NCBI RefSeq assembly: GCF_030551255.1
Contig: NZ_CP130630.1
Location: 1,116,001-1,180,000, forward strand
From: Streptomyces sp. NL15-2K
GTDB taxonomy: Bacteria; Actinomycetota; Actinomycetes; Streptomycetales; Streptomycetaceae
Length of the DNA: 64,000 nt
Reading direction: 5' to 3'
In this document: piece after piece, positions 38,355-64,000 of the stretch
How positions within the stretch are numbered: the stretch's first letter is position 1
Layout of the letters: each line of letters opens with the position of its first letter
Notes under the pieces: generated by a model
Seen by the model: only the letters and a program-made list of their open reading frames with translations
What the model was told of the DNA's origin: nothing
Databases searched by the model: none
Program-made: the position numbers and the translations under genes

Positions 38355-39169
38355 TCAGGCGCCGGATTCTGTGTTTCGCGACTCCATCCATTCGGCTATC
38401 GCCTGCCATGCCTGGCTCAGCATTTCGGGCAGCATCAGGTTGGTGTGTCGGCAGGGCAGGCCGACCGCCGAGACGGAGCCGCGGACGTACGGCTCCCAGC
38501 GCTGCTGCCGGGTGTCCAGCGAGTCGCTGTCGTCGTCGCGGCTCTCGGCGACGAAGAGCAGCATGTCGCCGTCGAAGACGGCGGGTTCGTGTCGCCTTCG
38601 CAGTGCCGTGTTGTTGCGGAAGATTTTCGTGATGAGGAGCAGTTCGTCGTCGGTGATGCCGTCGATGATCTCGCCGATTTCCTCGCGGATGCGGGCCGCG
38701 GTCTCCCGCAAGCCCGTCTCCGGGTCCGGGTCCCGCTGTACGCGCTCCGCGGGCTGGGGAAGGGGGGCGGGCTCGCCGTCCCGGGGCGGCGGCGGGTAGG
38801 CGTCCATGACGACCAGCGCGGCGACGGTCTCGCCGGCCTCCCGCAGCCGAACGGCTATCTCGTGCACGGGAATTCCGCCGAACGAGAAGCCGAGGAGGTG
38901 GTAGGGGCCGTTGGGCTGGACAGCTCGGATCTGTTCGACGTATTCCGCCGCCATGGCGCCGATGCTGTCCGGCAGCGTGTCACTGCCGTCCATTCCGGCG
39001 GCCTGGAGCCCGTACAGCGGGACGCCGTCCGTGGCGTACCGCGCCAGCGGGCGATAGCACCAGCTCAGGCCCGAGGCCGGGTGGACGAAGAAGAACGGCG
39101 GCCTGTCGCCCTCGGTCCGGATCGGCAGAATCCTGTTGAGCGAATCGCTCACGGACGCCAGGTCCAGCT
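38355..39169 (-). other. NRPS terminal thioesterase domain
   Basis: This type I thioesterase of about 260 aa has [20 protein letters not shown] at the start, nucleophile Ser in [15 protein letters not shown], Asp in [10 protein letters not shown] and His in [12 protein letters not shown]. It releases the finished peptide by hydrolysis or cyclisation; which one cannot be read from the sequence. Confidence 0.92.
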
Positions 39170-42100
39170 GACGGACGATCCCGGCGACGGTCGGTGCGGC
39201 GAACACCTTCCGTACGGAGGTGGAGATTCCCTTCTCCCGCAGCCGGGTCACGAGCGTGACAGCGAGCAGTGAATGGCCGCCGAGCCGGAAGAAGTCGTCG
39301 TCGAAGCCGACCTCGTCGAGGCCGAGGACGTCGGCGAACACCTCGCTGACGACGTACTCCAGGCTGGTGGCGAGGTTCCTCCTGCTGTCCGGGGTGGTGG
39401 CACCGGCGGTGTAGTCGGGGGCGGGGAGGGACTTGCGGTCGAGTTTGCCGGCGGCGGTCAGCGGCAGCTCCGGCAGTGCCACTACGGCGGCCGGGACCAT
39501 GTGGTCGGGCAGCCGCGCCGCCACGAAATCGCGTACACCGGCGGTGTCCATTCCGGTGTCGCCGTCGGCCGGGACGACGTACGCGACAAGGCGCCGGTCG
39601 CCCTCGGTGTCCTCGCGGGCGACGACCGCGGCCCGCGCGATGTCCGGGTGCGCGAGTAGTACGGCTTCGATCTCGCCGGGTTCGACGCGGAAGCCGCGGA
39701 TCTTGACCTGCTCGTCCACGCGGCCGAGGAACAGCAACTGCCCGTCCGGGGACCACCTCACCAGGTCGCCGGTACGGTACATCCGCTCACCGCCGGTCCC
39801 GAAGGGGCACGCCACGAAGCGCTCGCTCGTGAGGGACGGGCGGCCGACATAGCCGCGCGCGAGTGCGGCGCCTGCCACGTACAGCTCGCCGGGCACCCCG
39901 ACCGGCACCGGCTGAAGCGCCTCGTCCAGCACGAACAGGCGGGTGTTGGCGATCGGCGTACCGATCGGCACCACGTCGTCGTGCGCAGACAGCTCGGCCG
40001 TGGCCACACCGATCGTGGTCTCCGTCGGGCCGTAATGGTTGAACACCCGCCGGCCCTCGGCAACAGCCGTCCGCACCAGCTCCCGCACCCAGCCAGCTGA
40101 GGCCGCCTCACCGCCAAGGACCAGGGACTGCCCCGGCAGCAACGGCTCCACACCCACCGCAGCCGTCAACGCCGCCAGATGCGACGGCACCACCTTGAAC
40201 GCATCGATCCGCCGCTCGACGAGATAACCCACCACCGCTTCCGGATCGGTGACCGCCTCCTCGTCCAGCACATGCAACTGCCCACCCGTGGCCAGGCTCG
40301 TGAACACCACCGTGTTCCCCAGGTCCGTCACCTGCGCCTGAAGAAGCGCATACCGCGCCCCCGGCAACGACCACCCCAGCCGCACCGACACCGACGAGAC
40401 ATAGTTCGCCAGCGAACCGTGCGTAACCGCGACGCCCTTTGGCACACCCGTCGATCCGGAGGTGTAGATGACATACGCCAGCCCCGCCGGGTCGACCGCC
40501 ACACCCGGCGCGGCATCCGAAGCGCCCGACAGCCCGGCGAGATCGTCCGAAGACAGAACCACGTCCACACCGGCATCGGCCAACATGAACTCCACCCGCT
40601 CAGCCGGCAGACCACCGTCGATCGGCAGATAGGCCGCCCCGGCCTTCCAGACTCCGAGAATGCCGCTGATCATCTCCGCGCCACGCGGCAAACGCAGACC
40701 CACCACCGACTCCGGGCCCACACCCCGATCCCGCAGATAGTGCGCCAGACGATTCGCCGCCGCATCCAACTCCCCGTACGACAGCTCCACACCATCAGCG
40801 ACCACGGCCACCGCGCCAGGGGCCTCCTGAACCTGTCGCTCGAACAGTTCCACGACCGAAGGCGTCTCCGCCTCCGCCGCGGTGTCGTTCCAGTCCCGCA
40901 GCACTCGGTCCCGCTCGTCGGCGTCGAGCACGTCGACCGCGCTCAGGCGCAGGTCCGGAGCCTCGGTGACCGTGTTCAGGACCCGTACGAACCAGTCGGC
41001 CATGCGGCCCGCCGTCGGTGCGTCGAACAGGTCCGCCGCCACCGTCACCGCACCGCGCAGACCCGCCGGGCGCCCCTCGGCGTCGAGGATTTCGGCGATC
41101 CCGAAGTTCAGGTCGTACTTCGCCGGGGCCGGTACCGCTCCGTCGGGCCCGCCGGTGCCCGCGCCGGTGCGGGTGCGTGCCCCCGGCAGTTCCAGTGACG
41201 CCTCGCCGGTGTTCTGGAGGGTGAGGAACACCTGGAACACCGGGTGCCGCGCGAGCGACCGCTCCGGAGCCAGTTCCTCCACCAGGCGTTCGAACGGCAC
41301 GTCCTGGTGGGCCAGAGCGCCGAGGCTCGCCTCCCGGACCCGTCCCAGCACCCGCCGGAACTCCGGATCACCGGACAGGTCCGTACGGATCACCAGCGTA
41401 TTGACGAAGAAGCCGACCAGGTCGTCCAGCGCCTCATCCGTGCGGCCCGCGACCGGCGAACCGATCGGAATGTCGGTACCGGCTCCGACCCGCGACAGCG
41501 TCACCGCCAGCGCGGCTTGCAGGATCATGAACGTCGTCACGCCCTCGGTGCGCGCGAGCCGCGCCAGGCGCTGGTGCACGTCCGCCGTCACTCGCAGCGG
41601 TACCCGATGCCCCTGGTAGCTCGCCGTCGTCGGTCGTGGGCGGTCCACCGGGAGCGCGAGTTCTTCCGGCGCACCGGCCAGCGTTTCCCGCCAGTACGCC
41701 GTCTGCTTCGACAGCAGGCTGTCCGGGTCGGACTCCTCGCCCAGCAACTCCCGCTGCCACAGCGCGTGATCCGCGTACTGCACCGGCAGCGGCTGCCATT
41801 CGGGGGCCCGTCCCTCCAGCCGTGCCGCGTACGCCGTCGAGAGGTCCTGGCTCAGCGGGACGGTCGACCAACCGTCGCCGGCGATGTGATGGATGACCAC
41901 CATCAGCACCTGCTCGTCGGGGTCGGCTTGGAACAGCCAGGCTCGGATGGGCAGTTCGGCCGAGAGGTCGAACGCGTACCGCATCGCCCGGCCCATGGCA
42001 TCGGCCACGGCCTCGGGCGTGACCTGGGAGACCTCCAACTCCCAGTCCAGGTCGTGCGGGTCGAGGATGTGCTGGTACGGCTTGCCGTCCACGGCCGGGA

Positions 42101-45100
42101 AGACCGTCCGCAGCGACTCGTGCCGGGCGATCACATCGCGCAGTGCCGCGTCCAGCGCTCCGACGTCAACGCCGCTCAGACGGACCGGCATGGGGATGTT
42201 GTACGTCGGGCTCGGGCCTTCGAGCTGGTACAGGAACCACAGCCGGCGCTGCGCGAACGACAGCGGCACCCGCTCGGGGCGCGCCCACGCCCGCAGCGGC
42301 GTACGGGCCTCGCCCACGCCCTCGGCCAGCCGTGCCGCCAGACCAGCCACCGTCGGCACCTCGAACAGCGCCCGCAGCGGCAGCTCGACGCCGAGCACGA
42401 CACGGATGCGCGAGATCAGCCGTACCGCGAGGAGTGAGTGCCCACCCAGGTCGAAGAAGCTGTCGTCGACGCCGACCGCTTCCAGCCCGAGGATCTCGGC
42501 GAACGCCGCACACAGGATCTCTTCCTGGGGTGTGGCCGGCGCTCGACCGTCACCGGTGACGTACTCGGGCGCAGGCAAGGCCCGCCGGTCGAGCTTGCCG
42601 TTGGCCGTGAGCGGCAGCTCGGGCAGCGTGACGAAAGCGGCCGGGAGCATGTACTCGGGCAGGCGCGACGTCACCAACTCCCGTAGAGCGTCGGTCTCTT
42701 GGCCTGATGGCACCACGTATGCCACCAGCCGTTCGTCGCCGGGGGTGTCCTCACGGGCCACGACCGCCGCCTGGTGGACATCGGGGTGGGTGAGCAACAG
42801 GCTCTCGATCTCGCCGGGCTCGATACGGAAGCCTCGGATCTTGACCTGCTCATCGGCCCGGCCGAGGAACAGCAGTTGCCCCTCGGCGGACCACTTGACC
42901 AGGTCGCCCGTGCGGTACATCCGCTCCCCGCTCCTGCCGTACGGGCAGGCGATGAAGCGTTCACCGGTCAGTGACGGGCGGCCGACGTAGCCGCGTGCCA
43001 CGCCCGGGCCGGCGACATACAACTCACCCGCCACTCCGACCGGCACCGGCTGAAGCGCCTCGTCCAGCACGTAGACGCGGGTGTTGGCGATCGGCCTACC
43101 GATCGACGGCTCATCACCGGGGGCCAGCGGCGCCGACATCGACGCACACACCGTGATCTCCGTCGGACCATACGCATTGATCAGCCGGCGGCCCGGGGAC
43201 CAACGCTCCACCAACCCCACATCCAACGCCTCACCCGCCGACACCAGCGTGGTGATCGAATCCAGGCCGTCGTCGCCCAAAGCGCTCAGCACCGCCGGCG
43301 GCAACGTCGCATGCGTCACGCCATGGGCCGCCACCAGCTCGACCAGCCCGCCGCCCGGAAGCACGTCGTCCGCCGACGCCATGACCAGGGTCGCGCCCGC
43401 GCACAACGTCACGAAGACTTCCGACACCGCCGCGTCGAAGCCGACCGAGGCGAACTGAAGGACCCTTGACCCCCGCTCCACCGCAAACCGCTCACCCTGA
43501 GCGGCCACCAGGTTCGCGACCCCGTCATGGGCGACCGCCACACCCTTCGGCGTCCCCGTCGACCCGGAGGTGTAGATCACATACGCCAGACCCGACGGGT
43601 CAGCCTCTACTTCCGGCGCGGTCGTGGGCCGAGCCTCCAGCAGCGCGGTCGTCGTCGGATCGTCCAGGGCCACCAGCGGCACCCTGCCCACCGGCAGGTC
43701 GTCCAGGGCGTCCTGGCTCCCCAGAACGAGCTGCGCGCCGCTGTCGGCCAGCATGAACGCCACCCGCTCCACCGGCAGCCGGCCGTCGACCGGCAGGAAC
43801 GCCGCCCCCGCCTTCAGCACGCCCAGAATCGCTGTCACCAGCTCGGCGCCACGCGGCAGGCACACACCCACCACCGACTCATAGCCCACACCCATACCCC
43901 GCAGGAAGTGCGCGAGACGACTCGACTCGGCATCCAACTCCCGGTAGGAAAAGGCTACTTCGTCGTGCATCACCGCGACCGCGTCCGGAGCGGCTGACAC
44001 CTGCCGCCGGAACAGCTCCACCACCGACGAACCCGCCACCACGTCCGTGTCGTTCCACCCACGAATCAGCAGGTCACGCTCATCCGCGCCAAGCACGTCA
44101 ACCGCGCCCAACCGCACGTCCGGCTCCGCCGTCACCACCTGGAGCACCTGCGCGAACCAGTCGGCGAACCTCGCGGCGGCAGGCCCGTCGAACAGGTCCG
44201 CCGCGACCGTCACGACACCGTGCCAGCCCGCCGCCCGGCCGTCGCCGTCGAACTGCTCGACCATCACCACGTCGAGATCGAACTTGGCGGGCAGCAGCAC
44301 CGAGCCGTCGTCCGGGGAGGAGGTGTTCCTACCGCCGGCGCGGGACGCCGCCCCGGGCAACTCCAGCGTCGCGCGCTCCATGTTCTGCACGGTCAACGAC
44401 ACCTGGAACAGCGGATGGCGGGCGATCGACCGCTCCGGTGCCAGTTCCTCGACCAGCCGCTCGAACGGCACGTCCTGATGCGCGAACGCCCCCAGGCTCG
44501 TCTCCCGCACCCGTCCCAGCACTGCACGGAACTCCGGATCACCGGACAGGTCCGTCCGGATCACCAACGTGTTGAGGAAGAACCCGACCAGATCGTCCAG
44601 CGCCTCGTCACTGCGCCCGGCGACCGGCGAGCCGATCGGAATGTCCGTACCGGCTCCGACCCGCGACAGCGTCACCGCCAGCGCGGCCTGCAACACCATG
44701 AACGCCGTCACGCCCTCGGCCCGAGCCAGCTCCTTCAGCCTCTGGTGTACGTCGGCCGACACGCGGAACGCCGCGGAGTGGCCGCGGTGGCCGGCCACCG
44801 CCGGACGCGGTCGGCTCACGGGCAGAGCCAGCTCTTCCGGCGCCCCGGCCAGCGTCCGCCGCCAGTACTCCACCTGCGTCGACAGCAGGCTGTCCGGGTC
44901 CGATTCGTCGCCCAGCAACTGCCGCTGCCAGAGGGTGTAGTCGGCGTACTGCACCGGCAGCGGCTCCCACACGGGCGTCTGTCCCCCCGACCGCGCCGCA
45001 TACGCGGCGGACAGATCCCGCGCCAGCGGACCGCGTGACCAGCCGTCACTGGCGATGTGATGCACCACCACCAGCAGGACCTGCTGCTCGACGTCGTCCT

Positions 45101-48100
45101 CCGGTCTTGCCTCGAACACCCACGCCCGGATGGGCAGTTCGGCCGAGAGGTCGAACGCGTACCGCATCGCCCGGCCCATGACATCGGCCACGGCCTCGGG
45201 CGCGACCTGGGCGACCTCCAACTCCCAGTCCAGGTCCTGCGGGTCGAGGATCTGCTGGTACGGCTCGCCGTCGGCGGTCGGGAACACCGTACGCAACGAC
45301 TCGTGCCGCGCGATCACGTCCAGGAACGCCTCTTCCAGCGCCGCGGCGTTCACACCGCTCACACGGATCGGCATCGGGATGTTGTACGTGAGGCTCGGGC
45401 CTTCGAGCTGGTCCAGGAACCAGAGCCGGCGCTGCGCGAACGACAGCGGCACCCGTTCCGGACGCGTCCATGCCCGCAGCGGCGTACGGGCCTCGCCCGC
45501 CGCCTCGGCCAACCGTGCAGCCAGCCCGGCCGGCGTCGGCGCCTCGAACAGCGTCCGGACCTCGACCTCGACCCCCAGCACCGCCCGAATCCGCGACACC
45601 AGCCGCACCGCCAGCAGCGAATGCCCACCCAGGTCGAAGAAGCTGTCGTCGACGCCGACCGCTTCCAGCCCGAGGACCTCGGCGAACGCCGCACACAGGA
45701 TCTCTTCCTGGGGTGTGGCCGGCGCTCGACCGTCACCGGTGACGTACTCGGGTGCGGGCAGGGCACGCCTGTCCAGCTTGCCGTTCGCGGTCAGCGGCAG
45801 CTCGGGCAGCGTGACGAAAGCGGCCGGGACCATGTACTCCGGAAGCCGACCCGCCAGGAAGTCACGCACACCACTGGTGTCCATTCCGGTGTCGCCGTCG
45901 GCCGGGACGACGTACGCGACAAGGCGCCGGTCGCCCTCGGTGTCCTCGCGGGCGACGACCGCGGCCCGCGCGATGTCCGGGTGCGTCAGCAGTACGGCTT
46001 CGATCTCGCCGGGTTCGACGCGGAAGCCGCGGATCTTGACCTGCTCGTCCACGCGGCCGAGGAACAGCAACTGCCCGTCCGGGGACCACCTCACCAGGTC
46101 GCCGGTGCGGTACATCCGGTCACCGCCGGTCCCGAAGGGGCAGGCCACGAAGCGCTCGCCGGTGAGCGACGGGCGGCCGACATAGCCGCGCGCGAGTGCG
46201 GCGCCGGCCACGTACAGCTCGCCGGGCACCCCGACCGGCACCGGCTGAAGCGCCTCGTCCAGCACGAACAGGCGGGTGTTGGCGATCGGCGTACCGATCG
46301 GCACCACGTCGTCGTGCGCAGACAGCTCGGCCGTGGCCACACCGATCGTGGTCTCCGTCGGGCCGTAATGGTTGAACACCCGCCGGCCCTCGGCAACAGC
46401 AGTCCGCACCAATTCCCGCGCCCAGCCGGCTGAGGCCGCCTCACCGCCAAGGACCAGGGACTGCCCCGGCAGCAACGGCTCCACACCCACCGCAGCCGTC
46501 AACGCCGCCAGATGCGACGGCACCACCTTGAACGCATCGATCCGCCGCTCGGCGAGGTAGCTTGCCACCGCTTCCGGATCGGTGACCGCCTCCTCGTCCA
46601 GCACATGCAACTGCCCGCCCGTGGCCAGGCTCGTGAACACCACCGTGTTCCCCAGGTCCGTCACCTGCGCCTGAAGAAGCGCATACCGCGCCCCCGGCAA
46701 CGACCACCCCAGCCGCACCGACACCGACGACACGTAGTTCGCCAGCGAACCGTGCGTAACCGCGACGCCCTTCGGCACACCCGTCGATCCGGAGGTGTAG
46801 ATCACATACGCCAGCCCCGCCGGGTCCAGCACCACCCCGGGCGCCGCCTCCGAGCAGCCCTCCAGGAACATGCCGGTCAGCGGATCGTCGATCGCCACCA
46901 TCCGCGCCCGCCCGACCGGCAGGTCATCAAGCGCGTCCTGCGTGCCCAGCACCAACTCTGCCCGGCTGTCGGCCAGCATGTACGCCACCCGCTCCGCCGG
47001 CAGCTCGGCATCGACCGGCAGATACGCCGCCCCGGCCTTCCACACCGCCAGGATCGCCGTGACCATCTCCGCCCCGCGCGGCAGGCACAGCCCGACAACC
47101 GACTCACAGCCCACACCCTGACCACGCAGATAGTTCGCAAGGCGATTCGCCGACGCGTCCAGTTGCGCGTACGACAACTCGACACCCTCGGCCACCACCG
47201 CAACCGCATCCGCCCGAACCTGCCGCTCGAACAGCTCCACGACCGAGGACGTCTCCCCCTCCACGGCCGTGTCGTTCCACCGTGCCAGCACCCGGTCCCG
47301 CTCATCGGCATCGAGCACATCCACCGCGCTCAACCGCACATCCGGAGCCTCGGTCACCGTGTTCAACACCCGTACGAACCAGTCGGCCATGCGACCGGCC
47401 GCGGGCGCGTCGAACAGGTCCGCCGCCACCGTCACCGCACCGCGCAGCCCCGCCGGACGCCCCTCGGCGTCGTACGTCTCACCGAGGGAGACCCACAGGT
47501 CGAACTTCACCAGGGCCGTGTCTCCCGTATCGAGCCCCGCGCCGCCTCCGCCGGTGCGGACACCGGGCATGTCCAGCGCCGCATCCCCCGTGGTCTGCAT
47601 CGTCAGCACCACCTGCGCCAACGGATGCCGCGCCATCGACCGAGACGGCGCCAGCTCCTCCACCAACCGCTCGAACGGCACATCCTGATGCGCAAGAGCC
47701 CCAAGGCTCGCCTCCCGCACCCTCCCCAACACAGCACGGAACTCCGGATCACCCGACAGATCCGTCCGGATCACCAACGTATTCAGGAAGAAACCGACCA
47801 GATCGTCCAGCGCCTCATCCGTACGACCCGCCACCGGCGAACCCACAGGAATGTCCGTCCCGGCCCCGACCCGCGACAGCGTCACCGCCAGCGCGGCCTG
47901 CAACACCATGAACACCGTCACACCCTCGGCACGGGCCAGTTCCGCCAGCCGCCCGTGCACCTCCGCCGGCACCCGCACCGGCACCCGATGCCCCTCATGA
48001 CTCGCCACCACCGGACGCGGCCGGTCCACCGGCAACGCCAACTCCTCAGGCGCACCAGCGAGCATCCCCCGCCAGTACTCCACCTGCCGCGACAGCAGGC

Positions 48101-51100: not shown

Positions 51101-54100
51101 TCACCGCCAGCGCGGCCTGCAAGATCATGAACGTCGTCACGCCCTCGGCGCGTGCCAGGTCGACCATCCTCCGGTGCACCTCGACCGGCACCCGCAACGG
51201 AACCCGGTGCCCACGATGACCGGCCACCGCCGGCCTCGGCCGGTCCACCGGCAACGCCACCTCGTCCGGCGCACCGGCCAGCGCCTGCCGCCAGTACTCC
51301 ACCTGCCGCGACAGCAGGCTCTCCGGGTCGGACTCCTCGCCCAGCAACTCCCGCTGCCAGAGGGTGTAATCGGCGTACTGCACCGGCAGCGGCTCCCATA
51401 CCGGGGCCTCGCCCCGCAACCGTGCCGCATACGCAGTCGACAGATCCCGGCTCAGCGGAACCGTCGACCAGCCATCACCGGCGATGTGATGCACCACCAG
51501 CACCAACACCTGCTCGTCGCCGTCCGGGCCGGTCTGGAACAGCCACGCCCGGATCGGCACCTCGGCCGACAGGTCGAACGCGTACCGCATCGCCTGTCCC
51601 ACGGAATTGCCGAGTTCACCGGACTCGACCCGGCTGACCTGCAGTTCCCAGTCCAGATCGTGCGGGTCGAGGATGTGCTGGTACGGCTCGCCGTCCGCCG
51701 CCGGGAACACCGTCCGCAACGACTCGTGCCGGGCGATCACATCCCGGAACGCCTGCTCCAGCACCACGGCGTCCACACCGCTCAGCCCGATCCGCACCGG
51801 GATGTTGTACGTCGGGCTCGGGCCTTCGAGCTGGTCCAGGAACCACAGCCGGCGCTGCGCGAACGAAAGCGGCACCCGCTCGGGGCGCGCCCCGGACCGC
51901 AACGGCGTACGGGCCTCGCCCACGCCCTCGGCCAGCCGTGCCGCCAGACCGGCCACCGTCGGCGCCTCGAACAACGCCCGCAGCGGCAGCTCGACACCGA
52001 GCACGACACGGATGCGCGAAATCAACCGCACTGCGAGGAGGGAATGCCCACCGAGCTGGAAGAAGCTGTCGTCCACGCCGACGGACTCCAGCCCCAGCAC
52101 CTCCGCGAACACCGCGCAGAGGATCGCCTCCTGCACCGTGGCCGGGCCCCGGCCCTCGCCGGTGACGTACTCGGGCGCCGGCAGGGCCCGCCGGTCCAGC
52201 TTGCCGTTGGACGTCAGCGGCAACTCGGGGAGCGTGACGAAGGCAGCGGGGAGCATGTACTCGGGCAGCCGCGAGGCCAGCAACTCCCGCAGATCGTCGG
52301 GCACTTGGCCGACGGGAACGACATAGGCGACCAGCCGCTTGTCGCCCGGGGCGTCCGCACGGGCCACGACCGCCGCCTGGTGGACATCGGGGTGGGTGAG
52401 CAGCGCCGTCTCGATCTCGCCGGGCTCGATACGGAAGCCTCGGATCTTGACCTGCTCATCGGCCCGGCCGAGGAACAGCAGTTGCCCCTCGGCGGACCAC
52501 TTGACCAGGTCGCCCGTGCGGTACATCCGCTCCCCGCTCCTGCCGTACGGGCAGGCGATGAAGCGTTCACCGGTCAGTGACGGGCGGCCGACGTAGCCGC
52601 GTGCCACGCCGGCACCGGCGACGTACAACTCACCCGCCACTCCGACCGGCACCGGCTGAAGCGCCTCGTCCAGCACGTAGACGCGGGTGTTGGCGATCGG
52701 CGTACCGATCGACGGCTCATCACCGGGAGTGAGCGGTCCCGACATCGACGCACAAACCGTGATCTCCGTCGGACCATACGCATTGATCAGACGACGCCCG
52801 GGCGCCCACTGGTCGACCATCCCCGCATCCAGCGCCTCACCCGCGGACACGAGTGTGGTCACCGAGTCCAGGTCGGAATCGCCGAGAGTCCGCAGGACCG
52901 CCGGCGGCAGCGTCACATGCGTGACGTCATGGGCCGCCACCAGTTCCACCAGGCCGCCGCCCGGCAACACCTCGTCCGCCGACGCCACCACCAGCGCCGC
53001 GCCCGCGCACAACGTCACGAAGACTTCCGACACCGCCGCGTCAAAACCGACCGACGCGAACTGGAGCACCCGCGACCCCGGGTCCACGGCGAACCGCTCA
53101 CGCTGAGCAGCCACCAGATTCACCACACCGGCGTGCGCGACCGCCACACCCTTCGGCATACCCGTCGACCCGGACGTGTAGATCACATACGCCAGCCCCG
53201 CCGGATCGACCGCCACCTGCGGAACGGTCGTGGGATGAGCGTCCAAGAGCGCAGTCGTCGTCGGCTCGTCCAGGGCCACCACCAACGGCACCTGCCCAAG
53301 CGACGGATCATCCAGGGCGTCCTGGTTCCCGAGAACGAGCTGGGCTCCGCTGTCGGTCAGCATGAACGCCACTCGATCCGCCGGCAGCCGGGTATCGACC
53401 GGCAGGAATCCCGCCCCGGTCTTCAGCACGGCCAGAATCGCCGTCACCAGTTCGATGCCCCGCGGCAGGCACACGCCCACCACCGACTCACGACCCACAC
53501 CCATCTCGCGCAGGAAATGCGCCAGCCGATTCGACTGGGCGTCCAACTCCCCATAGCTCAACGTCACTTGGTCGTGAATCACCGCGATCGCGTCCGGATC
53601 GGCTGCCACCCGCCGCCGGAACAGCTCCACCACCGACGCACCCGCCACCACGCCCGTGGCTGTGTCATTCCATCCGTGGAGCAGCCGTTCACGCTCGTCG
53701 GCTCCGAGCACGTTCACCGTGCCCAGCGACATGTCCGGGCCGCCGTCCAGGGCTTCGGTGAGTGCGTCGACCACGTTCGCCGCCGCCGTGCACAGCAGTG
53801 CGCCCAGCGCACGCGGATCGAGCACGTCAACCGTCTGCACACTCAGACTCAGACCCCGCGTCCCGCGATCGTTGACCGAGACCGCCACCGGATAGTTGGT
53901 CCGCTCCTCCGCGAAGACCGTCCGTATCCCCGTCACCGGCCGCTGTCCCGTCGGGCTGTCCGAAGAGTCAGTGATGTGCCGGTAGTTGAACAGCGAGGTG
54001 AAGAGAGGCGCATCGCCCACGACACCACTGACCCGCTGCGCCACCGCCAACGGCGCATGCTCATGCTCCAGCAGCGCGGCCAACTGCTCCCGCATCCCCT

Positions 54101-57100
54101 CGACCGCCGCGCGCACCCCCACTCCACCGGTCAGCAGCCGCACGGGAAGCGTGTTGATGAACGGGCCCACCACACGGTCCGCACCCGCACCCGCGTTCAT
54201 CCGTCCCAACAGCACAGTGCCGAACACCACATCGTCCCGTCCGGACAGCACAGCCACCACCCGGGCCCACACCACATGCAGCACGGTCGCCGTACTGACT
54301 CCCAGTTCCCGCGCCACCCGCCGCAAGCCCTCGGTGACCTCGTCGGTGAGGTGCACGCCGGCCTCGATCACCCGGCTGCCGTCCCCGCGTACATCAAGGA
54401 GCCCGTACGGCGCGGTCGGCTCGGTCGCATCACCCAGCAACTCGGCGAAGAACCGCTCGTGCTCCTCCCTCGGCACCGCCCGCGTCTGCGCCACGAAGTT
54501 CCGGAACGGAAGCGCAGGCGCCAGCCGATCCGCCTCACCGGACAGCATGACCCTGAGTTCCTGGAGCAGGACGTCCATGCCCATGTGGTCCTGAAGCAGG
54601 TGATGCATCCGTACGACGGCCAGCCAGCGGCCCTCCGTCCGCTCGGCCACGTGCAGATCCATCAACGGCGCACGACCGAGATCCATCGCCAGGCCCGCCA
54701 GGGCGATCAGGGCCTCCACGGGCTCCGCGTGCCCGCCGTCGATCTCGTGCTCGACGACCGGTAGTTCCGCGTTCCGCCACACCACTTGGACCGGCTCCCG
54801 CAGCCCTTCCCACACCACACCCGTGCGGTAGATGTCGTGCCGGTCCACCACCTGCTGGAGCGCCTGCGCAAAGGTCTCCAGCCGGGAACGGGAGTCGAAC
54901 TCCACCACTCGCACCGTCACGTAAGTGTCGGCGCTTCCACTCGCCATGAGGTGGTGGAAGAGAAGGCCCTCCTGGAGCGGGGCCAGCGGATAGACGTCGG
55001 CCACGTTCGCCGCCCCGCCGTCGACCGTCCCGACCACCTGGTCGATCTCGGCCTGCGACAGGTCGACCAGCGGCAGCATGTCCGGGGTGATCCGCTCCGC
55101 ACCACCGGCCGGGATCAGGTTCTCCGGGACCTCCACCGACCCGACGCCGGCCGCACCCGCCAAACCGGCCGGCGTCGGCGCCTCGAACAACGCCCGCACC
55201 GACACCGACACACCCCGAGCCCGCAACCGCTCGACCAACGTCACCGCCAGCAGCGAATGCCCACCGAGCTGGAAGAAGTTGTCGTCGACCCCGACCCTCT
55301 CCACGCCCAGTACGTCGGCGAAGGTCGCGCACAGCAGCTCTTCCTGCACCGTGGCCGGGCCCCGGCCCGCACCAGTGGCGTACTCGGGCGCCGGCAGGGC
55401 CTTGCGGTCGAGCTTGCCGTTGGCCGTGAGCGGCAGCTCGGGCAGGACCACGACGGCAGCCGGGACCATGTACTCCGGAAGCCGCCCCCCAACCAGCGCC
55501 CGCAGCGCCTCGACCTCCAGGGTGTCGGCATGCTGGTCGGCCGGCACCACGTACGCCACCAACGCGTCCTCACGAACCACGACGGCGGCCTGGGCGACGT
55601 CCGGACGCGTCAGCAGTACGGCCTCGATCTCACCGGGCTCGACCCGGAAACCGCGCACCTTGACCTGCGTGTCCGCCCGCCCGGCGAACAGCAGTTGCCC
55701 ATCCAGAGTCCACTTGACCAGGTCCCCGGTCCGGTACATCCGCTCCCCACCAGAGCCGTACGGGCACGCCACAAACCGCTCACCCGTCAACGACGGACGA
55801 CGGACGTACCCCCGCGCCAGCCCGGCACCCGCCACATACAACTCACCCGTGACCCCGACCGGCACCGGCTGAAGTGCCTCGTCGAGAACGTACAGACGGG
55901 TATTGGCAATCGGCCGCCCGAACGGCACCGGACCCGAACGCCCCGCCTCCACCACCTCGGCCGCCACCATCACCGTCGCCTCGGTCGGCCCATAGGTGTT
56001 CACCAGCCGACGCCCCACCGACCAACGCCGCGCCGCCACCTCACTGATCGCCTCAGCACCCACCAACAGGGTCTCCACCTGCGCCAGATCCTCCGGCTCC
56101 AACACCCCCAGCAACGACGGCACCACACTCGCCGCCCGCACCCCCACCAACTCCCGCAACCTGCCCGGCTGCTCCCGCTGAGCATCACTGGCGACCCACA
56201 AAGTGGCACCGGACGACAACGCCACCGCCACATCCAGCACCGACGCGTCAAAACTGAACGACGCGAACTGCAACACCCCAACCCCCGGACCCGCACCCAT
56301 CACCGGACCGAACACGTCCACCAGATTCGCCAACGAGGAATGCGAGACGGCCACGCCCTTCGGCACACCCGTCGACCCCGACGTATAGATCACATACGCC
56401 AGATCACCCACCACACCCGGCGAGGCATCCGAAACGCCCGCCACCCCCGCGAGATCGTCCGAACCGATCACCACACCCACACCGGCATCAGCCAGCATGA
56501 ACTCCACCCGCTCAGCCGGCAGCCCAGCATCGACCGGCAGATAAGCCGCGCCGGCCTTCCACACCCCCACAATCCCGACGATCATCTCCGTGCCACGCGG
56601 CAAACGCAGACCCACCACCGACTCCCGGCCCACACCCCGCCCCCGCAGACAGTGAGCCAGACGGTTCGCCGCCGCATCCAACTCCCCATACGACAGCTCC
56701 ACACCATCAGCCACCACCGCCACCGCACCCGCATCAGCGGCAGCCCACTCCTCGAACAACTCCACCACCGACACACCCGCCACACCCGACGCCGTGTCAT
56801 TCCACCGCCGCAGAAGCAGGTCACGCTCGCCCGATCCGAGTACGTCAACCTCGCGCACCCGCACGTCAGGCACCGCAGTCACCGACTCCAGCACCCCGGC
56901 GAACCACCCCGCGATCCGCTCAGCACTCCCCGCCTCGAACAAGTCCGCCGACGCGATCAATCCGCCCCGAAGCCCAGCCGGACGGCCCTCCTCGTCGAAC
57001 ACCTCCGACAGCGACAGATCAAGGTCGAACCTCGACACCAGGAGCGAGCTGTCCAGCGGCGCGCTCCTGGCGTTCATGTCGGGGAGTTCCGACGTGGCGC

Positions 57101-60100
57101 GTTCGATGTTCTGCACGGTAAGCATCACCTGGAACAGCGGATGCCGCGCCAACGACCGCTCCGGAGCAAGCTCCTCCACCAACCGCTCGAACGGCACATC
57201 CTGATGCGCAAGAGCCCCAAGGCTCGCCTCCCGCACCCGCCCCAACACAGCACGGAACTCCGGATCACCCGACAGATCCGTCCGGATCACCAACGTATTG
57301 ACGAAGAAACCGACCAGATCATCCAACGCCTCATCCGTACGACCCGCCACCGCCGAACCCACCGGGATGTCCGTCCCCGCCCCCAGCCGCGACAGCGTCA
57401 CCGCCAACGCAGCCTGCACCACCATGAAGACCGTCACGCCCTCAGCACGCGCCAGCTCCACCAACCGCTGATGCACCTCCGCCGACACCCGCACCGGCAC
57501 GGCGTGACCGCGATGGCCGGCCACCGCCGGCCGCGGCCGGTCCACCGGCAACACCAACTCCTCAGGCGCACCGGCCAACACCCCACGCCAGTACTCAACC
57601 TGCGCCGACAGCAAGCTCTGCGGGTCAGACTCCTCCCCCAGCAACTCCCGCTGCCACAACGCGTAATCGGCATACTGCACCGGCAGCGGCTCGAACGTCG
57701 GCTCCTGCCCCCGCGACCTCGCCGCGTACGCGCGCGAGAAGTCACGCCGCAGGGCGCCGATCGACCAGCCGTCGCCGGCGATGTGATGCACCACGACAAC
57801 CAGAGCCCGCTCGTCCGGCCCGGTCTGGAACAGCCACGCCCGGATGGGCAGCTCCACCGACAGATCGAAGGCGTACCGCGACGCCTGCCGCACCGCGTCC
57901 GCCAGATCCTCGGGCGCCACGTCCGACACCTGGAGTGCCCAGTCCAGGTCGCGCTCGTCGAGGATGTGCTGGTACGGCTCTCCGTCCACGGCCGGGAACA
58001 CCGTCCGCAACGACTCGTGCCGCACGATCACGTCACGCAGCGCCGCGTCCAGCGCGGCGACATCCACCGCGCCGTTCAGCCGGATCGTCGTCGGCAGGTT
58101 GTAGAGCGCGTTCGGGCCCTCCAACTGCGCCAGGAACCACAGGCGCCGCTGGGCGAACGACAACGGCACCCGCTCCGGACGCGTCGCCGCGATCGCCAGC
58201 GCCGTACGGGCCTGGCCAGTGCCCCGCTCCGCGAGGCGCGCCGCCAAACCGCCGGGCGTCGGCGTCTCGAACAGCGCCCGTATCCCGACCTCCACACCCA
58301 GCACCGCGCGTATCCGCGAGATGAGCCTGACGGCCAGGAGGGAGTGCCCACCGAGCTGGAAGAAGTTGTCGTCGACTCCGACCCTCTCCATACCCAGGAC
58401 CTCGGCGAAGGTCGCGCACAGCAGCTCTTCCTGCACCGTCGCCGGACCCCGGCCCGTCCCAGTGGCGTACTCAGGAGCCGGCAACGCCCGCCGGTCCAGC
58501 TTTCCGTTGACCGTCAACGGGAGTTCCGGCAGGGTGACGAACGCCGTCGGAACCATGTACTCCGGGAGCCGCGACGCCACCAACTCCCGCAGCCCCTGGG
58601 CCTCCTGGCCAGCCGGCACGACGTATGCGATCAGCCGCTTCTCACCCGGGATGTCCTCGCGAGCCACGACGGCCGCCTGGTCAACGTCCGGATGCGTCAG
58701 CAGCACGGCCTCGATCTCACCGGGCTCGATCCGGAAGCCCCGCACCTTGACCTGCGTGTCCGCCCGCCCGGCGAACAGCAGTTGCCCATCCGGAGTCCAC
58801 TTGACCAGGTCCCCGGTCCGGTACATCCGCTCCCCACCGGAACCGTACGGGCACGCCACAAACCGCTCACCCGTCAACGACGGACGACGGATGTACCCGC
58901 GCGCGAGTCCCGCGCCGGCCACGTACAACTCACCCGTGACCCCGACCGGCACCGGCTCAAGCGCCTCATCCAGCACATACAGCCGACTATTGGCAATCGG
59001 CCGCCCGAACGGCACCGGACCCGAACGCCCCCCATCCACCGTCCCAATCGCCGTGATCACCGTCGACTCGGTCGGCCCATACGCATGCACCAACCGACGC
59101 CCCACCGACCACCTACGCGCCACCACCTCACCGACCGCCTCAGCCCCCACCACCATCGGCCCCACATGCGCCAGATCCTCAGGCTCCAACACCTCCAGCA
59201 ACGACGGCACCACACTCGCCGCCCGAACCCCCACCAACTCCCGCAACCTGCCCGGCTGCTCCCGCTGAGCATCACTGGCGACCCACAAAGCAGCACCGGA
59301 CGACAACGCCACCCCCACATCCAACACCGACGCGTCAAAACTGAACGACGCGAACTGCAACACCCCAACCCCCGGACCCGCACCCATCACCGGACCGAAC
59401 ACGTCCACCAGATTCGCCAGCGAGGAATGCGAGACGGCCACGCCCTTCGGCACACCCGTCGACCCCGACGTATAGATCACATACGCCAGATCACCCACCA
59501 CACCCGGCGCAGAGTCCGACGAGCCACCCGAACGATCCAGATCATCCGGACCGATCACCACACCCACACCGGCATCAGCCAGCATGAACTCCACCCGCTC
59601 AGCCGGCAGACCGGCGTCGACCGGCAGATAGGCCGCGCCGGCCTTCCACACCCCCACAATCCCGACGATCATCTCCGCGCCACGCGGCAGACACAGACCC
59701 ACCACCGACTCCCGGCCCACACCCCGACCCCGCAGCCAATTCGCCAGACGATTCGCCGCCGCATCCAACTCCCCATACGACAGCTCCACACCATCAGCCA
59801 CCACCGCCACCGCACCCGGATCAGCGGCAGCCCACTCCTCGAACAACTCCACCACCGACACACCCGCCACACCCGACGCCGTGTCATTCCACCGCCGCAA
59901 CAACACATCCCGCTCACCGGCATCCAGCACGCCCACGGAGCGCAGGGCAACGTCCGGACCGCCGATCAGTGTGTCAGCCAGCGCGTCGAGCAGGTTCTCC
60001 AGCGTGGTGTGCAGCAGTCGGCAGACCGCGGTCGCGTCGATCGAGGTGACGGCCTCCACGCTGAAGCCAAGGTTGTCCGGGCCGACGTCGTTGACCGACA

Positions 60101-63100
60101 CCGCCACCGGGTAGTTGGTCCGCTCCCGGACCAGAACGTTCCGGATTCCCTCCACAGGCCGCTGCTGCTCGTTCTCTTCCGCGCCGGTCGGGTTCTCCGA
60201 AGCGCCGGTGATATGCCGGTAATTGAACAGCGAGGTGAAGAGGGGCGCATCGCCCGCGACGCCGCTCGCACGCTGAGCCACCGCGAGCGGAGCGTGCTCG
60301 TGCTCCAGCAGCGCCGCCAACTGCTCCCGCATCCCCTCGACCGCCGCACGCACCCCCACCTCACCGGTCCGCACCCGTACGGGAAGGGTGTTGATGAACG
60401 GTCCCAGCACCCGGTCGGCACCCGCACCGGCATTCATCCGCCCGAACAACACCGTGCCGAACACCACGTCATCACGCCCGGACAGCGCCGCCAGCACCCG
60501 CGCCCACACCACATGCAGCACCGTCGCCGTACTGACCCCGAGTTCGCGCGCCAGCTCCCGCAGCCGAACCGCCGTCTCGCCGGACACGGGGACCCGTTCA
60601 GTTACCGTGTCGCCCTCGCCGCCCCGTACATTGAGGAGCCCGTACGGCGCCGTCGGCTCGGTGACATCGCCCAGCAGCTGAGCGAAGTACCGCTCGTGCT
60701 CCTCCCTTGGAACGGCCCGCGTCTGCGCGACGAAGTTCCGGAACGGCAGCGCCGGCGCCATACGCTCCGCCTCGCCGGTCAGCACCGCACGCAGCTCCTG
60801 AAGGAGGACGTCCATGCCCAGGTGGTCCTGCAACATGTGGTGCATCCGCACGACAGCGAGCCAGCGGCCCTCCGGGATCTCGGCCGCATGCAGATCCATC
60901 AACGGCGCACGCCTCAGGTCCAATGCGGAGCCTGCCAGGGCGATCAGGGCCTCCACCCGGTGCGCGGGCTCCGCGGAATCCACCTCAAGGACGTGCTCGA
61001 CAACCGGCAGTTCCGCGTGCCGCCACACCACCTGGACGGGCTCACGCAGCCCCTCCCACACCACACCCGTGCGATAGATGTCATGCCGGTCCACCACCCG
61101 CTGCAACGCCTGCACGAACGTCTCGAACCGGGACCGTGACGCAAACTCCACCACCCGCGCGGTCAGGTAGATGTCCTCTCCGTCACCCGCCATGAGGTGG
61201 TGGAAGAACATGCCCTCCTGGAGCGGGGCCAGCGGATAGACGTCGGCCACGTTCGCCGCGCCGCCGTCGACCGTCGCGACCACCCGGTCGATCTCGGCCT
61301 GCGACAGCTCGACCAGCGGCAGCATGTCCGGGGTGATCCGCTCCGCACCACCGGCGGGGATCAGATTCTCCGGAACCTCCACCGACCCGACGCCGGCCGC
61401 GCCCGCCAAACCGGCCGGGGTGGGCGACTCGAACAGCGCCCGCACCGACACCGACACACCCCGAGCCCGCAACCGCTCAACGAGCCGCACCGCAAGCAGC
61501 GAATGCCCACCGAGCTGGAAGAAGTTGTCGTCGACCCCGACCCTCTCCACGCCCAGTACGTCGGCGAAGGTCGCGCAGAGAATCTCCTCCCGCACCGTGG
61601 CCGGGGCACGTCCCGCACCTGTGGCGTACTCCGGAGCCGGCAACGCCTGACGGTCCAGCTTGCCGTTCGCGGTCAACGGCAACTCCGCCAGCATGACGAA
61701 CGCCGCCGGAACCATGTACTCCGGCAACCGCGAAGCCACCAACTCCCGCAGCCCACCGGCCTCCTGGCCAACCGGCACCACATACGCCACCAACGCGTCC
61801 TCACGAACCACGACGGCGGCCTGGGCAACGTCCGGACGCGTCAGCAATACGGCCTCGATCTCACCGGGCTCGACCCGGAAACCGCGCACCTTGACCTGCG
61901 TGTCCGCCCGCCCGGCGAACAGCAGTTGCCCATCCAGAGTCCACTTGACCAGGTCCCCGGTCCGGTACATCCGCTCCCCACCAGAGCCGTACGGGCACGC
62001 CACAAACCGCTCACCCGTCAACGACGGACGACGGACGTACCCCCGCGCCAGCCCGGCACCCGCCACATACAACTCACCCCTGACCCCGACCGGCACCGGC
62101 TGAAGTGCCTCGTCGAGAACGTACAAACGGGTATTGGCAATCGGCCGCCCGAACGGCACCGGACCCGAACGCCCCGCCTCCACCACCTCAGCCGCCACCA
62201 TCACCGTCGCCTCAGTCGGCCCATAGGTGTTCACCAGCCGACGCCCCACCGACCAACGCCGCGCCGCCACCTCACTGATCGCCTCAGCACCCACCAACAG
62301 GGTCTCCACCCGTGCCAGATCCTCCGGCTCCAACACCCCCAGCAACGACGGCACCACACTCGCCGCCCGAACCCCCACCAACTCCCGCAACCGCCGAGGC
62401 TGCTCCCGCTGCCCGACACTGGCGACCCACAAAGCAGCACCGGACGACAACGCCACCGCCACATCCAACACCGACGCATCGAAACTGAACGACGCGAACT
62501 GCAACACCCCAACCCCTGGACCCGCACCCATCACCGGACCGAACACACCCACCAAATTCGCCAACGAGGAATGCGAAACGGCCACACCCTTCGGCACACC
62601 CGTCGACCCCGACGTATAGATCACATACGCCAGATCACCCACCACACCCGGCGAGGCATCCGAAACGCCCGCCACCCCCGCGAGATCGTCCGAACCGATC
62701 ACCACACCCACACCGGCATCAGCCAGCATGAACTCCACCCGCTCAGCCGGCAGCCCAGCATCGACCGGCAGATAAGCCGCCCCGGCCTTCCACACCCCCA
62801 CAATCCCGACGATCATCTCCGCGCCACGCGGCAGACACAGACCCACCACCGACTCCCGGCCCACACCCCGCCCCCGCAGCCAATTCGCCAGACGATTCGC
62901 CGCCGCATCCAACTCCCCATACGACAGCTCCACACCATCAGCCACCACCGCCACCGCACCCGGATCAGCGGCAGCCCACTCCTCGAACAACTCCACCACC
63001 GACACACCCGCCACACCCGACGCCGTGTCATTCCACCGCCGCAGAAGCAGGTCACGCTCGCCCGATCCGAGTACGTCAACCTCGCGCACCCGCACGTCAG

Positions 63101-64000
63101 GCACCGCCGTCACCGACTCCAGCACCCCGCCGAACCACCCCGCGATCCGCTCAGCACTCCCCGCCTCGAACAGATCCGCCGACGCCGTCAGACCACCCCG
63201 CAAACCAGCAGGACGACCCTCCTCGTCGAACACCTCCGACAACGACAGATCAAGGTCGAACTTCGCCGCCACCGTGGCCACACCACCACCCACCACCGGC
63301 TCCCCACCGGCACGAGCACCCGGCAGCTCCAACCCACCACGCCCGACGTTCTGCACGGTGAGCATCACCTGGAACAACGGATGCCGCGCCAACGACCGCT
63401 CCGGAGCAAGCTCCTCCACCAACCGCTCGAACGGCACATCCTGATGCGCAAGAGCCCCAAGGCTCGCCTCCCGCACCCGCCCCAACACAGCACGGAACTC
63501 CGGATCACCCGACAGATCCGTCCGGATCACCAACGTATTGACGAAGAAACCGACCAGATCATCCAGCGCCTCATCGGTACGACCCGCCACCGCCGAACCC
63601 ACAGGAATGTCCGTCCCCGCCCCCAGCCGCGACAGCGTCACCGCCAACGCAGCCTGCACCACCATGAAGACCGTCACGCCCTCAGCACGCGCCAGCTCCA
63701 CGCACCGCTGATGCACCTCCGCCGACAAACGCATCGGCACCCGGTGACCGATGTGACTCGCCACAGCCGGCCGCGGCCGGTCCACCGGCAACGCCAACTC
63801 CTCAGGCGCACCGGCCAACACCCCACGCCAGTACTCCACCTGCGCCGACAGCAAGCTCTGCGGGTCAGACTCCTCCCCCAGCAACTCCCGCTGCCACAAC
63901 GCATAATCCGCGTACTGCACCGGCAACGGCTCCCACACCGGACCCTCACCCCGCACCCGCGCCGCATACGCCACCGACACGTCCCTGGCCAGCGGACCAC
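38355..64000 (-). CDS. Giant nonribosomal peptide synthetase, eight modules plus thioesterase in view (5' end outside)
   Basis: One uninterrupted minus-strand frame covers 25.6 kb (at least 8,548 codons) and enters from beyond the right edge in the middle of a condensation domain, so the start is not in the window. Order in view: (C)-A-T repeated eight times, then a terminal thioesterase. Every carrier domain has GGHSLL, every A domain has [11 protein letters not shown] A3 and NGKLDR-type A10 motifs (AGKLDRK in module 8). There is no separate epimerisation domain. Hand-read pocket residues suggest modules 4 and 7 = Tyr, 5 = Gly, 6 and 8 = Asp; modules 1-3 are unassigned. The product should be a peptide of at least eight residues, released by the thioesterase as acid or macrocycle. 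The Hpg/Dpg genes, MbtH and CmlA-like enzymes nearby fit this assembly line. Confidence 0.95.
39170..42314 (-). other. NRPS module 8 (last): C-A(Asp)-T
   Basis: The C domain has [11 protein letters not shown]-domain pocket as read: D-L-T-K-V-G-H-I-G-K (aspartate), as in module 6. The carrier [20 protein letters not shown] is more divergent than the others, as is usual for the carrier that hands over to a thioesterase. Confidence 0.88.
42315..45499 (-). other. NRPS module 7 in view: C-A(Tyr)-T
   Basis: The C domain motif is [10 protein letters not shown] (Gly to Ser at a non-catalytic position). A-domain pocket as read: D-A-S-T-V-A-A-V-C-K (tyrosine), as in module 4. It lies between two aspartate modules, giving an Asp-Tyr-Asp tail. 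Confidence 0.85.
45500..48714 (-). other. NRPS module 6 in view: C-A(Asp)-T
   Basis: The C domain has [11 protein letters not shown]-domain pocket as read: D-L-T-K-V-G-H-I-G-K, the published aspartate code. The A domain is almost identical to that of module 8 ([31 protein letters not shown]). Confidence 0.88.
48715..51914 (-). other. NRPS module 5 in view: C-A(Gly)-T
   Basis: Ordinary C domain ([10 protein letters not shown]). A-domain pocket as read: D-I-L-Q-V-G-V-I-W-K, one or two conservative changes from the glycine code DILQLGLIWK. The A domain differs strongly from its neighbours ([20 protein letters not shown]), so it is of separate origin. Confidence 0.85.
51915..55149 (-). other. 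NRPS module 4 in view: C (D-acceptor or dual type)-A(Tyr)-T
   Basis: The C domain again has [16 protein letters not shown] and [13 protein letters not shown]-domain pocket as read: D-A-S-T-V-A-A-V-C-K, the published code for tyrosine (also used for beta-hydroxytyrosine in glycopeptide NRPSs). The A domain is close to that of module 7. Confidence 0.8.
55150..58224 (-). other. NRPS module 3 in view: C-A-T, substrate unassigned (same code as module 1)
   Basis: The C domain is of the ordinary kind, with [18 protein letters not shown] and [11 protein letters not shown]-domain pocket as read: D-A-L-S-L-G-T-V-M-K, identical to module 1, so residues 1 and 3 are probably the same amino acid. Like module 1 it is followed by a D-acceptor or dual-type C domain. 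Confidence 0.75.
58225..61399 (-). other. NRPS module 2 in view: C (D-acceptor or dual type)-A-T, substrate unassigned
   Basis: The C domain opens with [20 protein letters not shown] and [16 protein letters not shown], the N-terminal form seen in DCL and dual epimerisation/condensation domains. Its active-site motif is [12 protein letters not shown], HHxxxDH instead of HHxxxDG. A-domain pocket as read: D-A-L-S-V-G-A-V-I-K, related to modules 1 and 3 but different at four positions. Confidence 0.7.
61400..64000 (-). other. NRPS module 1 in view: C (partial)-A-T, substrate unassigned
   Basis: The partial C domain begins at the window edge. The A domain (about 61,630-63,030) has pocket residues, read against GrsA numbering by eye, D-A-L-S-L-G-T-V-M-K. 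I cannot match this to a substrate from memory; a phenylglycine or other aromatic residue is plausible from context. The A domain is nearly identical to that of module 3. The carrier is [15 protein letters not shown]. Confidence 0.75.

Follow-up and report, generated by a model that had tools for sequence, protein, structure and literature searches.

The described systems closest to the locus reported here are long, acylated or phenylglycine-containing peptides made by nonribosomal peptide synthetases (NRPSs). Ornithine (Orn), enduracididine (End) and citrulline (Cit) are the basic residues of the ramoplanin/enduracidin family, and feglymycin is reportedly built from residues of the 3,5-dihydroxyphenylglycine (Dpg) and 4-hydroxyphenylglycine (Hpg) type with an acidic C-terminus, the C-terminal residue being, it is said, Asp. 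PMC9113097 describes a FAAL:ACP:starter-C route of initiation (ACP, acyl carrier protein; C, condensation domain) and names the FAAL:ACP start for enduracidin; PMC8949500 presents dual condensation/epimerization (C/E) domains, which epimerize and then condense with the next residue, as general in Pseudomonas lipopeptide NRPSs; and a table row of PMC10628113 gives 25 residues for syringopeptin 25A. Furthermore, a 22-module line stands as an orphan row in a genome-survey table of 2015 (PMC4599437). Here we report on a 64,000-nucleotide stretch of Streptomyces sp. NL15-2K (contig NZ_CP130630.1, positions 1116001-1180000; referred to as the window), which contains the 3′ portion of nrpsC. This gene closes a series of three NRPS genes that together encode a line of 27 modules, probably for an acidic lipopeptide.

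The first-pass annotation of the window had described a single gene of more than 25.6 kb, still open at the window edge, and this was confirmed: within the window, nrpsC reads without interruption along the minus strand (38355-63998) up to a single, terminal stop at 38355. When the sequence was extended past 64,000 in the host genome (genus Streptomyces; 12.40 Mb, three contigs, the window lying on the contig C1), the gene was found to continue up to C1:1190186 (window-equivalent 74186) and to encode 11,943 aa with 11 modules. The adjacent nrpsB (C1:1190183-1231531; 13,782 aa, 13 modules) overlaps nrpsC by 4 bp, and nrpsA (C1:1239253-1248936; 3,227 aa, three modules) lies upstream of nrpsB, separated from it by other genes; all three are on the minus strand, their start codons having been picked mechanically. 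The condensation-family model PF00668 matched 11, 13 and 3 domains in nrpsC, nrpsB and nrpsA, and a search with GrsA PheA likewise gave 27 adenylation (A) domains, one in each module. Neither a frameshift nor an internal stop was detected in the three genes. The line consists of 3 + 13 + 11 = 27 condensation-adenylation-thiolation modules and one terminal thioesterase (TE; PF00975). Across the whole genome PF00668 gave 107 matches, and further large NRPS frames were seen near C1:8.14-8.18 Mb and 9.95-10.05 Mb.

From the extracted A-domain codes, the chain is predicted to be acyl-Phe-Asp-Asp-Ser-Asp-Ser-X-Asp-Tyr-Z-Tyr-Tyr-Ser-Asp-Ser-Asp-Asp-Phe-Asp-X-Z-X-Tyr-Gly-Asp-Tyr-Asp, in which X and Z are of phenylglycine type (2 Phe, 10 Asp, 4 Ser, 5 Tyr, 1 Gly and 5 phenylglycine-type residues). 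The tail that had been read by hand as Tyr-Gly-Asp-Tyr-Asp was correct, and the X-X-X before it, left unread at that time, also belongs to the tail and is read as of phenylglycine type. The observation that such a tail is unlike those of ramoplanin, enduracidin, feglymycin, vancomycin-type and calcium-dependent antibiotic (CDA)-type peptides was borne out, as none of these was matched. No Orn, End or Cit code was present among the 27, as judged by the usual codes for these residues. Six of the 10-letter codes were searched for in the open-access literature and not found there, and their 8-letter cores were matched only for the common Asp code.

To what residues X and Z correspond was approached through the company that their A domains keep. 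An X-type search of 39 genomes, drawn from those with the 80 DpgA loci described below, had given a match at E 1e-148 in seven, and the cut-off for domains like that of module 20 (M20) was set after its scores; at E ≤ 1e-146, seven of 150 Streptomyces genomes had such domains, and all seven were among the 23 of the same 150 genomes with DpgA (6/6 when our own genome was removed, p = 5e-6). In the other six genomes, the 18 M20-like domains listed all had a code beginning with DALS, and the Z domains M10 and M21 were 90% and 89% identical to the X domain of M20. In these sequences DALS-type codes go with Dpg genes, and X is for that reason probably Dpg and Z Hpg, or the other way round. The notion that X is the usual Hpg was dropped, as S. 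coacervatus has DAYHLGLLCK and DALSVGTVMK within one frame.

The handedness of the residues was read from the C domains. Not a single epimerization (E) domain was found in the three genes, and all 27 condensation-family domains classed best as C types; those of modules 3, 7, 8, 11, 13, 18, 21 and 23 were of a distinct type, all eight of them carrying an FHHL motif near the N-end, which was present in none of the other 19. In a C-domain tree with flagged long branches, these eight and the eight corresponding domains of the relative G661 (described below) formed one clade with 100/100 support, separate from this genome's own LCL, DCL and E reference domains. Because C domains of the dual E/C type follow them, residues 2, 6, 7, 10, 12, 17, 20 and 22 are predicted to be D. 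As a control, the same models were applied to a ramoplanin-type line of Amycolatopsis orientalis, where dual domains followed residues 3, 4, 5, 7, 10, 12, 14 (Gly) and 16; this set covers all seven positions that are D in ramoplanin and no position described as L in passages of PMC6270203. The codes of the control line at 5 and 16 differ from the expected Thr and Ala, so that it represents a relative of ramoplanin and not ramoplanin itself; it has one module without an A domain and a stand-alone Thr-type A protein. The possibility that C domains of the M03 type are ordinary DCL domains was dropped, given the lack of E domains, the separate clade and the lack of FHHL in 4/4 DCL references.

Relatives of the line were then sought. 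A DpgA scan of the contigs of 240 relatives left 80 loci, and a dual-domain search of 17 genomes from this set gave a match in 13. In tblastn comparisons the best match per gene and locus was kept, provided that it covered at least 50% of the query in the first comparison of DpgA loci, or at least 40% for loci of close relatives (G188, G189, G185 and members found through TauD). Synteny and dual-domain searches together revealed several giant dual-E/C lines near Dpg genes; five of the wider ones (G154, G156, G160, G161 and G165) do not end in Asp-x-Asp. The closest were Actinomadura sp. NBRC 104425 (G188) and Nonomuraea turkmeniaca (G189; CmlA 86%, TauD 81%, P450 78%, FAAL 71%); the first gene of the latter is also read as Phe-Asp-[dual]Asp. 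A TauD search through 341 genomes of the family of G189 and 392 Streptomyces genomes allowed six further members with neighbours in common to be read (G283, G475, G661, G673, G683 and G699), G479 being left out of the reading among the TauD matches of at least 77% identity. TauD alone was rejected as a family marker: at E 1e-85 it was found in 48/392 Streptomyces genomes, our own included, and in G436 beside an unrelated line. There (C3:2073958-2122136) the oxygenase, 78% identical, adjoins an NRPS line that has E domains and codes of Asp and Gly type, and a transfer of the enzyme from one peptide type to another may have occurred.

The line of G661 also has 3 + 13 + 11 modules and reads FD/D NDS/Z/TYX/ZY/YDSD D/TXX/TZ/YFDYD, a slash standing before each residue with a dual C domain. 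For this reading, those of G475 and G673 and the domain comparison with G661, split A-domain fragments and NRPS frames shorter than 1,500 aa were left out. All eight dual positions are the same as in our line, and 16/27 residues are equal, including Asp 2, 3, 5, 14, 16, 17, 25 and 27; when the G661 residues were shuffled, at most 14 matches were reached in 100,000 trials. G475 has 22 modules, ends in Asp-Z-Asp and has dual domains at 3, 7, 8, 10, 14, 18 and 20, and G673 has 21 modules, ends in Asp-Tyr-Asp and has them at 2, 10, 11 and 13. The four ends read over three residues, those of our line, G661, G475 and G673, are all Asp-(Tyr/Z)-Asp-TE, and a C-terminal Asp was found at 5/5 of the subfamily ends read. 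The subfamily features are Asp-[dual]-Asp near the start, this Asp-(Tyr/Z)-Asp-TE end and a set of CmlA, TauD, response regulator/histidine kinase and FtsX/ABC genes; both ends were found in our line, G661, G475 and G673, and the features were found partly in G188, G189, G683 and G699.

The comparison with G661 also pointed to how the line has changed. The best partner lay at the same position for 16/27 C domains and 9/27 A domains, and 13/27 C positions formed sister pairs in the tree. The A domains of M01, M02, M03, M05 and M16 were closest to the same position in G661. On the other hand, our Ser and X domains match a different module of the same line at 94-98% identity, the best G661 domain reaching 75-81%, and the same holds for M10 and M21 (96% against 75-81%). 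A diagonal search of the DNA showed near-identical blocks that span most of an A domain, 1,262 bp at 99.68% between M10 and M21 and 1,593 bp at 98.31% between M06 and M15, and A domains within the G661 line were likewise similar in DNA (Ser 97.5%, Z 94-96%, Thr 89-92%). In our reading of these sequences, the C-domain frame has been kept by descent, and the exchange of A-domain DNA within the cluster changes the inner side chains.

The features of the window are collected in Table 1. At the head of the line, beyond the window, a P450, FAAL and ACP adjoin nrpsA, which begins with a starter C domain that pairs with that of G661 in a separate clade; judged by sequence, these head genes are those of the FAAL:ACP:starter-C route and have the features of a FAAL-initiated lipopeptide line. 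The interval between nrpsA and nrpsB holds a TauD-family oxygenase, an ABC exporter and an FtsX/ABC/HlyD set, whose HlyD-like protein carries a peptidoglycan-binding domain. At E 0.01 the TauD protein had two relatives in the PDB, a clavaminate-synthase-like plant protein and one TauD/TfdA-like entry. A MacB-like exporter and a two-component system are among the cluster genes, the latter lying beside the TE end here and at the opposite end in G475, and one P450 gene was found among the 30 flanking proteins annotated.

The first-pass annotation had named complete Hpg supply, nearly complete Dpg supply, MbtH, two CmlA-like oxygenases and two StrR regulators. MbtH is present, and Dpg supply is nearly complete as described, DpgA, DpgB and DpgC being recognized and DpgD not. 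For Hpg, the fused HmO-HpgT-type gene stood, but the HmaS-like gene scored over the NCBIfam cut-off for 4-hydroxyphenylpyruvate dioxygenase (HPPD), so that HmaS is a name given on account of its location and of the 64-69% identity that it shows to genes adjoining HmO-HpgT in related loci. One of the two oxygenases is a complete CmlA (PF18456 and a lactamase fold; closest PDB entries 8a90 and CmlA), and the other, which lacks the N-terminal domain, is paralogous to its C-terminal half (57% over 333 aa). When the latter was used as query, the best match per locus in related loci was the full CmlA gene, so the half gene may be specific to this genome. The StrR name could not be confirmed, there being weak Pfam helix-turn-helix (HTH) matches and no StrR match in NCBIfam. 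The stretch at 18600-19900, between DpgC and a block of aromatic-catabolism genes, is the probable left edge of the cluster; it gave only a weak, below-cut-off IS4/5 transposase match. The block itself (13554-18471; FAD monooxygenase, IclR, HpcH aldolase, FAA hydrolase and catechol dioxygenase) was dropped as part of the cluster.

Table 1. Features of the NRPS cluster in the window (window positions; A-domain codes with predicted residues)
Feature	Position	Strand	Remarks
DpgC	19915..21096	-	left-most clear cluster gene; over NCBIfam equivalog cut-off
DpgB	21270..21944	-	over NCBIfam equivalog cut-off
DpgA	21938..23107	-	over NCBIfam equivalog cut-off
Fused FMN alpha-hydroxyacid oxidase and aminotransferase (HmO-HpgT type)	23162..25561	-	
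HmaS- or HPPD-type dioxygenase	25558..26577	-	Hpg supply suggested by place
CmlA paralogue, C-terminal half	26672..28003	-	without CmlA N-terminal domain
Prephenate dehydrogenase	28740..29885	-	tyrosine/Hpg precursor supply
Second putative pathway regulator	30392..31474	+	weak HTH matches only
Putative pathway regulator	31686..32723	+	StrR-like in the first-pass annotation; weak HTH matches only
OmpR-type response regulator	33257..33919	+	85-88% identity in 4 relatives (G188, G475, G661, G673)
Alpha/beta hydrolase	33956..34759	-	possible editing (type II) thioesterase
Complete CmlA-type diiron beta-hydroxylase	34772..36364	-	85-88% identity in 7 relatives (G188, G189, G475, G661, G673, G683, G699)
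MbtH-like protein	36636..36851	+	
Sensor histidine kinase	36986..38302	+	adjoins TE end, likewise in G661 and G188; far from TE end in G475
nrpsC 3′ part	38355..64000	-	modules M20-M27 complete and TE; rest of gene past window edge
Terminal TE domain	38358..39167	-	PF00975, active-site motif GFSFG; 56-71% identity in four relatives
M27 A domain	39396..40916	-	DLTKVGHIGK, Asp
M26 A domain	42552..44036	-	DASTVAAVCK, Tyr
M25 A domain	45735..47306	-	DLTKVGHIGK, Asp
M24 A domain	48948..50558	-	DILQVGVIWK, Gly
M23 A domain	52158..53717	-	DASTVAAVCK, Tyr
M23 C domain (part matched by Pfam)	53847..55001	-	dual E/C type; residue 22 predicted D
M22 A domain	55371..56801	-	DALSLGTVMK, X, phenylglycine type, probably Dpg
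M21 A domain	58458..59861	-	DALSVGAVIK, Z, phenylglycine type
M21 C domain	59967..61256	-	dual E/C type; residue 20 predicted D
M20 A domain	61617..63032	-	DALSLGTVMK, X

On this basis we favor, with fair though far from full confidence, a collinear line that would make one acidic lipopeptide of 27 residues. A fatty acid would be loaded onto Phe1, and the eight residues named above would be turned D ahead of the next bond. By analogy, some Asp or aromatic residues may be β-hydroxylated by the hydroxylases of CmlA and TauD type, and the TE would free the chain; release might go along with closure of a large lactone on a hydroxylated Asp close to the N-terminus, in the way that ramoplanin closes onto β-OH-Asn2. 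An Asp-rich product that may bind metal is plausible. Because the peptide would bear about ten carboxylates, a lipid tail and aromatic residues, and because close relatives retain the Asp at both ends, the product could be an antibiotic that acts on the cell envelope and depends on a divalent cation, probably Ca2+, for folding and for reaching an anionic target; we regard this role, again drawn by analogy, as possible but somewhat less probable than not, and it would agree with the export genes and with the two-component system that adjoins the TE end.

Several observations weigh against this picture. As the first-pass annotation had pointed out for the tail, the canonical calcium motif Asp-X-Asp-Gly (DXDG) is not matched, and it is absent from all 27 codes, the sole Gly (residue 24) following Z-X-Tyr; cation binding, if any, would thus take another way. 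Macrocyclization, the hydroxylation sites and Ca2+ dependence are taken from analogy throughout, and modules may be skipped or reused. The eight-position dual map is common to G661 only, those of G475 and G673 being different, and the more distant Paractinoplanes polyasparticus (G185; FAAL 56%) starts with Phe-Asp-Tyr without a dual domain. As for the phenylglycines, none of 28 genome matches was above the DpgD cut-off, and 16/23 DpgA genomes had no X-type A domain at the cut-off. A firm assignment of X and Z is further opposed by a glycopeptide line, whose modules presumably specifying Dpg have other codes (DPYHGGTLCK, DPFNQGTFCK), and by the Hpg code DAYHLGLLCK of this line and of the ramoplanin-type line; G673, which has HmO-HpgT and HmaS-like genes and no Z code, speaks against a simple rule. 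The relative G185 also has an 11,960-aa open frame ending at its contig end (C97:1-39769), adjoining a frame with an Asp code, in which 11 modules were read, ten with DALS/DVLS-type codes and one with Phe, and which is unusually rich in phenylglycine codes.

If the TE released the chain by hydrolysis, a linear acidic peptide with a free C-terminal Asp would result, acting like feglymycin, a 13-mer rich in Hpg/Dpg. The phenylglycine-type residues and the Asp at all five ends read would suit such a product; we nevertheless find it rather unlikely in view of the lipid start genes, the smaller share of phenylglycines (5/27), the lack of a near-alternating D/L pattern and a length twice that of feglymycin. 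An outsized lipid II binder like ramoplanin or enduracidin, with the same start, dual E/C chemistry, phenylglycines and a macrolactone on a β-hydroxylated residue near the N-terminus of a longer acidic chain, appeared unlikely. It would share with the A. orientalis line the starter C and the same dual type, and FAAL and ACP, a CmlA-type hydroxylase and the FtsX/ABC/HlyD genes with their peptidoglycan-binding domain agree with it. However, the chain has 27 residues instead of 17; the lack of Orn, End and Cit codes makes the product acidic and not cationic; and every module has its own A domain, so that a trans A-T protein is not needed. That the product is a metal-scavenging lipopeptide (metallophore) and not an antibiotic was judged quite improbable: the ten Asp, their conserved clusters at both ends and a TauD-family hydroxylase that could yield β-OH-Asp would be expected of one, but no siderophore uptake or receptor gene was recognized among the 30 flanking proteins, 27 residues would be costly for a chelator, and a two-component system with a MacB-like exporter fits envelope stress better. 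Lastly, an assembly artefact from near-identical repeats is scarcely credible as the source of the 27-module count, since, although A-domain blocks of up to 1,262 bp at 99.7% identity are repeated between modules, the genes are free of frameshifts and stops, the longest shared block (1,593 bp) is about half a module, and the independent line of G661 has C domains akin position by position.

Beyond the lipopeptide reading favored above, we put forward, as a rather speculative idea that may well prove wrong, a family of nonribosomal mini-proteins. These would be lipopeptides of 21-27 residues. Selection would preserve the Asp pairs at their ends, and in the 27-residue branch also the length and L/D map, much as it preserves a protein fold; gene conversion among A domains would reshuffle the side chains in between, and the peptides would act on the cell envelope by folding around metal ions. 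A line of 33 modules in Streptomyces sp. Ag109_O5-1 (G160) would be a cousin. That line (NZ_RKQF01000001.1, 5041126-5149004, minus strand) comprises five co-directional, end-overlapping NRPS frames of 9 + 6 + 10 + 4 + 4 = 33 modules with dual E/C domains and a TE, near Dpg genes and CmlA, and is longer than the 27-module line. If the lipopeptide reading is right, the present peptide would exceed the longest syringopeptin, of 25 residues, in the table rows seen of PMC10628113. The Streptomyces line and that from the family of Nonomuraea turkmeniaca would furthermore form a natural experiment, with the same 27-step map of handedness and different inner residues: the pair would point to the positions that matter, the Asp pairs, and to the means by which large assembly lines alter a single residue while the chain stays intact, by swapping A-domain DNA and keeping the C domains. 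Which residues matter and how single residues can be changed in large lines are both open questions in NRPS engineering, and directly testable.

No characterized product of this line was found among the matches listed from the open-access literature (MIBiG, patents and most subscription papers being outside the scope), of which PMC4599437 alone was relevant; the 33-module lines of PMC8698034 and PMC9967187 and the 24-module line of PMC10134820 make polyketides and were set aside. The orphan row of PMC4599437 resembles G475, with 22 modules distributed over three genes, whose products have 3126, 11331 and 8503 aa (3128, 11335 and 8517 aa from stop to stop in G475), and shares with our line the Phe-Asp-Asp start and the Asp-x-Asp end before the TE, but has 22 modules against 27; it gives Phe at position 9, where we read X in G475, with DASTVGAVDK at 10. 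C domains are untyped in that table, and the main text of the survey nowhere uses the words "lipopeptide", "phenylglycine" or "Dpg". Like the ramoplanin/enduracidin systems, our line has dual E/C in place of E domains and a starter C domain (both as in the A. orientalis line), phenylglycines and a TE, whereas those peptides have 17 residues, some of them basic, and an A-less module served in trans, against 27 acidic residues and no A-less module here. Feglymycin is a 13-mer of mostly Hpg/Dpg without an acyl start, whereas here 5/27 residues are of phenylglycine type and acyl start genes are present. With the calcium lipopeptides daptomycin, A54145, friulimicin and malacidin the line shares several Asp and the FAAL:ACP:starter-C initiation (PMC9113097); according to the same paper, the DXDG type has a two-module last protein (CAT-CATTe), and it has E domains and the DXDG motif, whereas our last protein has 11 modules and the line has none of these. 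Glycopeptide antibiotics are heptapeptides with an X domain before the TE and several cross-linking P450s, in contrast to 27 modules, no condensation-family domain between the last A domain and the TE, and the one P450 here. Syringopeptin 25A is comparable as a very long lipopeptide but differs in composition, ours being acidic, and in the phylum of its producer. The machinery itself is of known kinds, and since a 22-module relative was already tabulated in 2015, the kind is not wholly unseen. In its sequence features, the line belongs to a new subfamily of FAAL-started, dual-E/C phenylglycine lipopeptides, the features tested excluding the ramoplanin, feglymycin, glycopeptide and DXDG families.

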